Part shown: positions 32,390-39,300 of the stretch, piece after piece
Position numbering within the stretch: position 1 is the first letter of the stretch
How the letters are laid out: each line of letters opens with the position of its first letter
From: a virus
Length of the DNA stretch: 43,261 nucleotides
IMG/VR virus record: IMGVR_UViG_3300025641_000015
Location: 1 to 43,261 of that record
Reading direction: 5' to 3' (one strand)
Translations under genes and position numbers: made by a program
Notes under the pieces: generated by a model
The model's input: only the letters and a program-made list of their open reading frames with translations
What the model was told of the DNA's origin: nothing
The model's database searches: none

Positions 32390-33358
32390 CTACCAAATAT
32401 CCTCAAAATCTTCTCCTTCACCCGCTTTACTATAGTCTGTCGAACGAATAGCAAAAAAATCAGTATGGGTGTGACCACCAGTAAGATGGTAAAACCAATC
32501 CAATTTCTTAGCACTTTCCTCATCAAAAGAAAAATAACTACCAAGATCTGTATAACCAATTTCATATAGCTTTTCATTTGTTCTTTTCTTTATAAAGTTT
32601 TTTAAATCAGTAGAAGACATTCCTTCAATGTCACCCATCTCGAACATTTTATCAATGTAGTTTAGTTCTAACTCAACCATAATTTTAGCTGCCTCTATAA
32701 CGTCATCCTTAACTAAAACTCTTAAGTGTACATCCTCTTCACACATCTGGTTAAATAATTTACAACCCATCTTACTATGCAGTGATTCATCGCGCACAGA
32801 CCATTTCATTTGTTGTCCAATACCTTTAAGCATATTACGTAACTGGAAAGAATACAAAACAGCAAAAGCGCTGTATAAGCTAACGCCCTCAGCAAAGGCT
32901 GAAAAGATAGCAAGTGATGTAGCAATACCAGTACGGCTATTTCCGTCATAAGCCATAAGATTATTAAACCTATTAGCCGTTGCCGGCTGATGTAAGAAAG
33001 CTTCATAATTTTCTAATTTTAATGTTTCGTTTAAATAGCTATATGCTACAGCGTGTACTGTTTCTTGAGAACCGAACATCATAGCCATCTGCTGTATCTC
33101 ATGCTTTGGAAACCAGTGAGTTACCTTGTTAGTCCAGTAGTCTGAAACTGCACATTCAGTCTGAGCAAATCCTAATAGGATATTTCCTACTAGATTCTTT
33201 TCTTTATCCGTGAGGTTCTCATTCCAGTCCTTAACGTCTCCTGACATGCTAATTTCTGTATGTAGCCAGAATGCTTGTGCTTGCTTCAACCAGCCCTCCG
33301 TATAATATTCGGGGTATTCAAATGGTTTGTAAGCTAATCTAGGTGTAAATAATGACAT
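32390..33358 (-). CDS. nrdB: Ribonucleoside-diphosphate reductase beta subunit (class I)
   Basis: A 322-residue ferritin-like radical subunit, the partner of NrdA. Aligning by motif to E. coli NrdB, the metal ligands are E68 (AQTECAV), E99 and H102 (SQETVHAVAY), E157 (FAEGVS) and E191 and H194 (RDESLH). Tyr106 sits where the radical Tyr122 does, so a tyrosyl-radical enzyme is expected. The first ligand appears to be Glu where E. coli has Asp. The C-terminus is acidic and aromatic (EGEDFEDIW), as needed to dock on NrdA. The gene heads the RNR group. A 53-codon membrane-protein gene precedes it by 5 nt. Confidence 0.95.
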   Translation of the reverse strand: MSLFTPRLAYKPFEYPEYYTEGWLKQAQAFWLHTEISMSGDVKDWNENLTDKEKNLVGNILLGFAQTECAVSDYWTNKVTHWFPKHEIQQMAMMFGSQETVHAVAYSYLNETLKLENYEAFLHQPATANRFNNLMAYDGNSRTGIATSLAIFSAFAEGVSLYSAFAVLYSFQLRNMLKGIGQQMKWSVRDESLHSKMGCKLFNQMCEEDVHLRVLVKDDVIEAAKIMVELELNYIDKMFEMGDIEGMSSTDLKNFIKKRTNEKLYEIGYTDLGSYFSFDEESAKKLDWFYHLTGGHTHTDFFAIRSTDYSKAGEGEDFEDIW

Positions 33359-33363
33359 AGTTT

Positions 33364-33525
33364 TTATTTATTTTTATTTTGGTGTTTTTCTATTATATAA
33401 TCAAGTTCTTGTTTGTGAACCTTATATGTTTTTCCAATAACAAATGTCCATAAAGTACACCAAACAATTGTGCTTACTGCAAATCCAACCACTATTCCTT
33501 TCCAATAATTATATTCTTTATTCAT
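33364..33525 (-). CDS. Small single-span membrane protein
   Basis: A 53-residue frame starting MNKEYNYWKGIVVGFAVST. Residues 10-30 form one hydrophobic span with Trp residues at the interface, followed by a basic tail (TYKVHKQELDYIIEKHQNKN). It ends 5 nt before the nrdB start, so it is probably the first cistron of that group. Small one-span proteins of this kind are frequent in phage early regions. No function can be assigned. Confidence 0.55.
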   Translation of the reverse strand: MNKEYNYWKGIVVGFAVSTIVWCTLWTFVIGKTYKVHKQELDYIIEKHQNKNK

Positions 33526-33547
33526 ATTCCGTAAATTTTACATACCT

Positions 33548-33637
33548 ATAACAAAGTGTATAAGTAATTTTATTGTATCACTATCGTATATTTTCGTGTC
33601 TTATCGTATCAAACTACTCTTATACACAAACCGTTAT
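33548..33637. repeat. Long split inverted repeat resembling an integron attC site
   Basis: GTGTATAAG (33,556-33,564) and CTTATACAC (33,619-33,627) are perfect inverses with a 54-nt central part. Outside them, ATAAC (33,548-33,552) and GTTAT (33,633-33,637) also pair, separated from the inner arms by short unpaired spacers of 3 and 5 nt. The central part has TATCGTAT twice (33,582 and 33,602). Two arm boxes with unpaired spacers and a variable centre are the architecture of attC recombination sites. It lies right behind the stop of the 67-codon minus-strand gene. The intergenic stretch 33,526-33,643 holds nothing else. Confidence 0.6.
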
Positions 33638-33643
33638 GTGATA

Positions 33644-33847
33644 TTACTCAACCAAATCGTCTATATTAATATTATGTTCATTTAAAAGTTCTTGTATTTT
33701 AGTCCAAGCCTTTTCATATTCATAATCTGTGTGTTTAAATTCACGCCATCCATTATGTACAAGCTCCCATATAAAACAAGCCATATCATTACATTTAGAA
33801 AATCTCTTTATTTCAGTTGGATTATTACTTTCAAATATTGCTTTCAT
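33644..33847 (-). CDS. Small hypothetical protein (cassette-like gene)
   Basis: A 67-residue acidic protein beginning MKAIFESNNPTEIKRFSKCN and ending in a helix (AWTKIQELLNEHNINIDDLVE). I recall small phage and bacterial proteins with an 'MKAIFEFN.P' start, but no function. GTTATGTG/CACATAAC inverted motifs and hairpins flank it on both sides, with 3 nt between its stop and the downstream element. This single-gene-plus-hairpin arrangement resembles an integron gene cassette. If that is right, it was acquired as a unit. Confidence 0.6.
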   Translation of the reverse strand: MKAIFESNNPTEIKRFSKCNDMACFIWELVHNGWREFKHTDYEYEKAWTKIQELLNEHNINIDDLVE

Positions 33848-33856
33848 AATTTAACG

Positions 33857-33892
33857 CCACATAACAACGTATATAAAACATTGCTTTTGTGG
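33857..33892. repeat. Split hairpin upstream of the cassette-like gene
   Basis: CCACA (33,857-33,861) pairs with TGTGG (33,888-33,892), and CAACG (33,865-33,869) with CATTG (33,879-33,883, one G-T). Unpaired spacers TAA and CTTT separate the two arm pairs around a 9-nt loop. It contains CACATAAC, the inverse of GTTATGTG at 33,633-33,640 on the other side of the gene. This is the expected position of a preceding attC-type site, but the two elements are of unequal length. Confidence 0.5.
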
Positions 33893-33908
33893 TATTTTAT
33901 TTAGTTTA

Positions 33909-34070
33909 TTAATAATTCAATTCTTTTTGTTTATCTATTAATTCCTTTAACAGTATCTTACCCCTGTTATTAAAGCTCCACTTACACCATTTATCAAGCT
34001 GACGTTCGGCATATTTTTTACGAGCTACTGATTTTTGTGCTCGAGTATTAACTCGACTGTTATGTCGCAT
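33909..34070 (-). CDS. Small basic protein overlapping the endonuclease gene
   Basis: A 53-residue frame beginning MRHNSRVNTRAQKSVARKKY and ending LLKELIDKQKELNY, very rich in Lys and Arg. It starts inside the last 46 nt of the endonuclease gene in another frame and runs through the ~115 nt after it, which would otherwise be empty. The high basic content and clean stop support a real gene. A nucleic-acid-binding role is plausible only from charge. No family is recognised. Confidence 0.5.
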   Translation of the reverse strand: MRHNSRVNTRAQKSVARKKYAERQLDKWCKWSFNNRGKILLKELIDKQKELNY

Positions 34071-38565: not shown

Positions 38566-39300
38566 CTATAGAGTACGGTTAATAAAAAATTGTTTAGGAT
38601 CAAAGTCCTTTGTTTTAAAAAATAATTGGTACTGAGCAACTGCTCTTTTAACCTTATCTGCTCCGCGAGCATAAAATTCAGGTGAACAGTCAAACAGACC
38701 TATTTGATTTGTGCTTTTGTCTATAACTATGAATATTAAGTCATAGCCAAACAACTTTCTGTATACATATGCCTGACTGTCATAGTTATACTTTGTCGCT
38801 GAGTATTTAAACTTAGCAATATCAGCTGTAGTTTTTAGATCAATAATTAACTTTTCATCGTGATTAATTATATCTGCCTTACCTTTCCATAGCTCACCCT
38901 CTATTTCTTTTATTCCTGGTACTTCGTATTCTACGTTAGCACCTCTTATTAGGTTTTTGCATACATCGTTAGACATAACAGTGTCAATCATTACTTCAAG
39001 CTTATCTACTTCACTTTTTAATAAGCACATCTCACCTCCAGATATTTCTTTATATATCTTTGTATTTCTAGTGCTTGCTTCAATAATCTTAAACTTCTTA
39101 AGTTTATCAGGCTCTAAGATCGCTGTATGAAAATAACCACCAACTAAAAATGCTGGTATACTTTCTTGTGGCTCACGTAGTGATAACGGATTTGTTAGTA
39201 ATTTTGATATATCTGAATTGCTAAGATACTGTTTTCCAAACGAACCGTAATAATCTTCATCATTTTTTAACCTCTCAAGTTCTTTTTTATACTTAGTCAT
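38566..39300 (-). CDS. RecE/PDDEXK-type exonuclease
   Basis: A 244-residue protein. The N-terminus has YLSNSDISKLLTNPL and a His-bearing FLVGGYFHTAILEP block. The catalytic core is ELWKGKADIINHDEKLIIDL followed by KTT, with the Gly-Lys-Ala-Asp ... Asp-Leu-Lys residues of PD-(D/E)XK nucleases. A helix with YDSQAYVYRKLFG follows, as in RecE/DUF3799 and RecB-like phage exonucleases. Its role would be to resect double-strand ends. It sits directly after the ERF annealing protein, the standard two-gene recombination pair. Confidence 0.78.
   Translation of the reverse strand: MTKYKKELERLKNDEDYYGSFGKQYLSNSDISKLLTNPLSLREPQESIPAFLVGGYFHTAILEPDKLKKFKIIEASTRNTKIYKEISGGEMCLLKSEVDKLEVMIDTVMSNDVCKNLIRGANVEYEVPGIKEIEGELWKGKADIINHDEKLIIDLKTTADIAKFKYSATKYNYDSQAYVYRKLFGYDLIFIVIDKSTNQIGLFDCSPEFYARGADKVKRAVAQYQLFFKTKDFDPKQFFINRTL

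Follow-up and report, generated by a model that had tools for sequence, protein, structure and literature searches.

We have analysed a virus record of 43,261 bp (the window), which contains genes for portal, primase-helicase, thymidylate synthase, MazG and ribonucleotide reductase, and very likely carries a piece of a flavobacterial-type integron cassette array in its podoviral replication/nucleotide-metabolism region. The piece would consist of the 3' part of one attC site, a complete cassette containing a 67-aa gene and its site attC_B, and a second cassette of which only the 5' part is present. The preliminary description of this DNA had proposed an integron cassette, and this view is supported by the match to an attC model, by the presence of the palindromes around other genes, and by the clean absence of the gene in relatives; none of the outcomes named there as refuting was observed. 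It had also proposed a unit of one cassette; a complete cassette is indeed present, but the insert is an array fragment containing one complete and one broken cassette. The features of the locus are as follows:

32390..33358, minus strand: nrdB, ribonucleotide reductase small subunit, native, right of the insert
33362..33551, minus strand: cassette 2, truncated (whole version in L334-L338)
33545..33640, minus strand: attC_B, complete, found with covariance model R1, with arm scores among the best of the viral set; in order R'' CACATAAC, spacer GGTTT, L'' GTGTATAAG, AG bulge, centre, L' CTTATACAC, spacer TTT, R' GTTATAGG
33552..33864, minus strand: gene cassette 1, complete and 313 bp long from one putative G|TT crossover point to the other, starting with TTATGTGG and finishing with R'' CACATAAC plus attC
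33644..33847, minus strand: cargo gene of cassette 1, a 67-aa ORF
33858..33941, minus strand: attC_A, truncated to its 3' part with loss of the R''/L'' half; what is left is a loop remnant, L' TTTTATATAC, spacer GTT and R' GTTATGTG
33909..34070, minus strand: p53b, native conserved phage gene left of the insert
33923..33941, minus strand: left junction zone, from the empty-site relatives L188/L189 versus the attC of L069/L084

Read along the minus strand, p53b is followed by the 3' part of an attC, G|TTATGTGGCGTTAAATT-ATG, 67 codons and a stop, and then by CACATAAC, the split palindrome, G|TTATAGG, a 53-aa gene and nrdB. The elements on which the cassette proposal was based are present as described: the single 67-codon gene is at its place, flanked by the 8-mers GTTATGTG (33633-33640) and CACATAAC (33858-33865), and the split inverted repeat is formed by GTGTATAAG (33556-33564) and CTTATACAC (33619-33627), with 54 nt between them and ATAAC/GTTAT outside. 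The "shorter split hairpin" before the gene also exists, but is really the 3' part of an attC of ~145 nt whose 5' part is missing, and the cassette is therefore now bounded by only one complete site. As in integron cassettes, the first bases of cassette 1, GTTATGTG, are the exact inverse of its own R'' CACATAAC (8/8), and attC_B, as matched by R1, has the imperfect palindrome R''-spacer-L''...L'-spacer-R' of an attC site. Compared with the consensus RYYYAAC/GTTRRRY, the R boxes ACATAAC and GTTATGT are off by one position and GTTATAG by two; the boxes GTTAGGC and GTTAGCC in other cassettes of the same array kind fit GTTRRRY. We also considered attC_A as an attI-like fixed site, and rejected this because the full 145-nt version with R''/L'' stands behind many different genes.

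Taken by itself, the sequence gives weak statistics. The frequency of GTTATGTG is unremarkable (3 seen, 1.5 expected), single-sequence folding of attC_B gives no excess stability (z about +1), the split hairpin alone is expected ~0.3 times per 43 kb of shuffled sequence, and an 8-mer at both gene ends alone has a p of about 0.14 for the whole window. The case consequently rests on comparison. Nothing relevant was found in Rfam, where a Lnt match was far under threshold, or in a plasmid collection, and a DNA similarity search with attC_B in phages returned short, chance-level matches only. For the covariance model R1, eight viral sites of the ~80-nt class were used, the window site not being among them. 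Searching for attC sites with a covariance model had been proposed as a check, and the viral-trained R1 matched the window at 33545-33640 on the minus strand over the full model length with 37.2 bits (E 2.7e-6; the E-values of the tool are rough, the bit scores being unaffected); the next best match scored 13.7. R1 gave 42 matches on 16 other viral loci and zero at E <= 1 on 16 cassette-free relatives (169 kb).

The same element is found in other viral contigs. A Blast search with the upstream element identified an uncultured 462-kb phage and Tenacibaculum phage JQ, and an exact-pattern scan of viral contigs revealed about 20 loci in which the long element is followed by different genes. Complete long copies are ~145 nt (ATAAC-GGTTT-GTATATGAAACGTTGC ... 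GCAATGTTTTATATAC-GTT-GTTATG), and full versions are present in L007, L010, L019, L028, L060, L062, L069, L072 and L084. When near-identical contigs are taken once and the window's own phage species is left out, different genes at 11 viral loci are enclosed by GTTATGTGG on the start side and by an inverted CACATAAC on the stop side, the inverse that closes the gene directly after the stop being mostly TAATGCCACATAAC. Among 514 ORFs of the viral leader loci, 27 are enclosed by a GTT-9-mer and its inverted copy, with 0.73 expected after swapping flanks; a Vibrio phage with a known integron has four such ORFs (0.36 expected), and relatives of the window phage have none (2.7 expected). The anticipated occurrence of similar palindromes elsewhere is borne out, as both phages and many chromosomes of Flavobacteriaceae have them on either side of other genes. 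Two arrays deserve separate mention. Phage JQ, whose name is absent from Qi et al. 2023, has at least four cassettes in one array, a methyltransferase among their cargo (L251, 26-4322), and a multi-cassette array of the flavobacterial/phage type is present in a gammaproteobacterial MAG labelled Methylophaga (L083, PAJP01000008.1), a contig that is probably misbinned.

How the piece probably arrived can be read from related phages. The 67-aa gene is missing in all 79 podoviruses with an NrdB of about 80% identity or more, which largely retain the block primase-thyX-mazG-endonuclease-p53b-nrdB, and in most of them p53b has the endonuclease gene and nrdB as its neighbors. In the closer relatives L188 and L189, p53b runs directly into nrdB, which constitutes an exact empty site; the comparison of related phages suggested in the preliminary description hence gave a clean absence. 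On its left, the insert terminates within TTAATAGATAAACAAAAAGA, which is native in L188/L189 and matches, at 19/20 positions, the inner part of the 145-nt attC found with unrelated cassettes; on its right, it is cut inside cassette 2. Because both ends lie inside cassette parts, the insert is an array piece broken at both ends. The position of the left junction within the 19/20-bp match suggests that the piece was probably acquired when p53b recombined, homologously or illegitimately, with the attC interior, for which co-infection or contact with an array would have been the occasion. An alternative reading of the left junction is that the attC interior could be derived from p53b. In L188 itself, a degenerate attC (L188:2889-2984, 26.2 bits) lies immediately downstream of nrdB, and for that reason uptake of cassette pieces in the nrdB region may be a repeated event.

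Integrases can use secondary sites, and an integrase could have inserted the piece site-specifically at a secondary site of the phage, the truncations having occurred later. The intact attC_B and G|TT boundaries would fit such an event. However, neither boundary of the insert is a G|TT: the left one lies in the attC_A loop, in the 19/20 bp shared with native p53b, and the right one lies inside cassette 2. In addition, the window phage has no integrase, as a profile search of the 43,261 bp matched no tyrosine recombinase (PF00589). We consider this route rather unlikely, and favor entry by recombination inside an attC.

The 67-aa protein belongs to no Pfam or PHROG family, tblastn against phage records gave no match, and as a cassette its gene was seen only in the phage species of the window. 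A 38% relative of the protein is encoded in another phage without visible cassette boundaries (L186:4001-4219), on which basis the cargo may be a captured phage gene. Cassette 2 encodes a 53-aa membrane-type protein (33364-33525, minus strand). In the window its 3' end and attC are missing and it is joined to nrdB; five contigs from unrelated phages (L334-L338) have the cassette whole, GTTATAGGTA...TACCTATAAC, and encode proteins of 86-90% identity. The possibility that this 53-aa gene, p53a, is native was discarded, as it is a cassette elsewhere (L334-L338). As expected of cassettes, a single ORF is absent from relatives that have the empty site, and cassette 2 is found whole beside other neighbors in unrelated phages. 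Judged from these genome comparisons, the sites and cassette 2 are shown to be independently mobile. The 67-aa gene would now be read with the phage operon, and attC_B could in principle fold as a single-strand hairpin open to an integrase, which would be supplied by the host or another phage because the window phage encodes none. attC_B may still be active.

The search for bacterial counterparts leads to the Flavobacteriaceae, the likely host family and a major family of marine bacteria with large integron-like arrays. Among 84,980 species genomes, the exact phage-type half-site occurs at only two loci, one of which is in a cassette array of Maribacter litopenaei. Of 300 genomes from the same family, 126 have a match to a second attC of this array, the family being inferred from Maribacter. 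Cassette flanks enclose 125 of the 1,091 ORFs in the Maribacter region and 20 further regions (<= 20 kb), with 1.94 expected. Flavobacteriaceae genomes (L283-L322) contain long co-oriented arrays with up to 28 detected cassettes in 40 kb. Where an upstream walk reached the head of the array, a tyrosine recombinase of 376-403 aa precedes the first cassettes (9/9), although in one of the nine, G268, a single 39-codon hit precedes the recombinase; within each of the nine arrays, all cassettes have one direction, which is also that of the recombinase. Most of these arrays have, immediately after the stop of the recombinase gene, an attI-like site that leads into the first cassette, for example AAACGCACCGGTGCGTTTATCCATATGTTG|T or TATAGTTACTAGTAACTATATACATACGTTG|TGC. 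The Maribacter array is atypical in having mixed gene directions and was therefore left out as a model case; its recombinase was tried as an IntI and rejected (142 bits versus the 265 cut-off). In the same genome, a phage-type cassette lies antisense among host-type cassettes (L246:12402-12889), which looks like a phage-to-host transfer. The presence of this cassette in the Maribacter chromosome suggests possible transfer between phage and host arrays.

These arrays also bear on whether the palindromes are recombination sites at all. They could belong to a dispersed, REP/MITE-like repeat family that flanks genes by accident, since many genomes have repeated copies of these palindromes between genes. 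But the outer 9-10 nt vary between cassettes and are present as inverted copies within each, so that the outer boxes are matched per cassette, as predicted by recombination through a circle, and the host copies are located in strictly co-oriented arrays that begin with a recombinase and an attI-like site. An accidental repeat family is accordingly a very improbable explanation. That the feature is just an ordinary intergenic hairpin or terminator beside a fast-evolving phage gene, which the weak single-sequence tests would allow, has practically no standing, and is already refuted by the covariance-model match, the flanks common to unrelated genes and the whole cassette 2 elsewhere.

The orientation of the cassette gene with respect to attC is reversed between viruses and hosts. 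In host cassettes (L253-L322), the spacer at the 3' end of the gene is short and the other one long, with short-long versus long-short counts of 158:2, whereas in viral cassettes (L005-L082, L238-L239 and L251) long-short predominates (49 versus 5); viral upstream sites show the same reversed pattern (61:3). The spacers of the window attC_B, 5 and 3 nt, have the viral polarity. This result was confirmed with the viral-trained R1, which in eight host regions matched 106 sites, 105 of these being in opposite orientation to the cassette genes. When a possible seeding bias was checked in part with a host-type seed, only two viral contigs were found, one of 70 kb with antisense genes and one of 7 kb that is host-like. 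The opposite polarity leads to a testable prediction on strand choice and expression; our guess is that the cassette pool kept by phages is selected for reading from phage promoters, independent of attI.

The recombinases at the array heads lack the IntI insertion in alignments and have an extra N-terminal domain of ~90 aa. Against TIGR02249 (cut-off 265 bits) they reach 190-211 bits in two stretches, which places them outside IntI, and none of 300 genomes contains an IntI over the cut-off, the positive control, a Vibrio phage, scoring 494 bits. One of the two recombinases tested is over the cut-off of NCBIfam NF040815. The N-terminal domain, which matches no Pfam family over cut-off, is present in 149 of the 300 genomes and is associated with attC (79/126 versus 70/174, p = 1.7e-4). 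The head recombinase presumably acts on attC. The chances are about even that the Flavobacteriaceae contain a widespread, unrecognised class of chromosomal integrons, with an XerA-like integrase that has the extra N-terminal domain and no IntI insertion, and that their phages have a separate cassette pool, the cassette of the window included, in which the gene is inverted relative to the site. If true, phage cassettes would lie antisense in host arrays and host cassettes antisense in phage arrays.

How does the feature of the window relate to known systems? A complete integron needs an integrase gene and attI in one element, and the window has no PF00589; a CALIN in the sense of Qi et al. needs at least two attC sites, and the window has one complete and one truncated. 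Qi et al. 2023 (PMC9892861) described CALINs and attC sites in phages, including Polaribacter phage P12002L, and showed that five of six phage attC sites tested recombined with attI1 via IntI1; hence, the feature belongs to a known kind. R1 also matches P12002L, at 38875-38940, beside the methyltransferase gene gp54. As in those phages, single-gene, attC-bounded cassettes occur without an integrase in virulent marine phages, but the window has only one complete attC plus fragments. Our analysis differs from that study in the attC families common to many flavophages, in the exact empty site, and in the polarity opposite to host cassettes. The empty site of close relatives allows the insertion to be compared directly with the uninserted state, making its probable route, recombination inside an attC, readable.

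With respect to the hosts, Qi et al. (PMC9892861) do not mention flavobacterial arrays, and IntegronFinder 2.0 (PMC9024848) reports in the Bacteroidetes nothing but In0 elements and a single complete integron, that of Salinibacter. The open full-text literature, which does not cover subscription papers and preprints, contained no papers on integrons of Flavobacteria or Bacteroidota as such, and the host integrase family and the polarity difference are apparently undescribed as far as that literature shows. The catalytic part of the head recombinase is closest in sequence and fold to XerA (4a8e, 5hxy) and IntI4 (2a3v); unlike XerA and XerC/D, the protein has an N-terminal domain without a Pfam family and heads cassette arrays. 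The Flavobacteriaceae arrays resemble the sedentary chromosomal integrons of the Vibrio type in being long, co-oriented arrays of single-gene cassettes with attC sites, a recombinase at the head and an attI-like site. They differ from them in that the recombinase points in the same direction as the cassettes, lacks the IntI-specific insertion, has the extra N-terminal domain and scores under the IntI cut-off. If the head recombinase is the integrase of these arrays, the IntI-based definition of an integron is too narrow.
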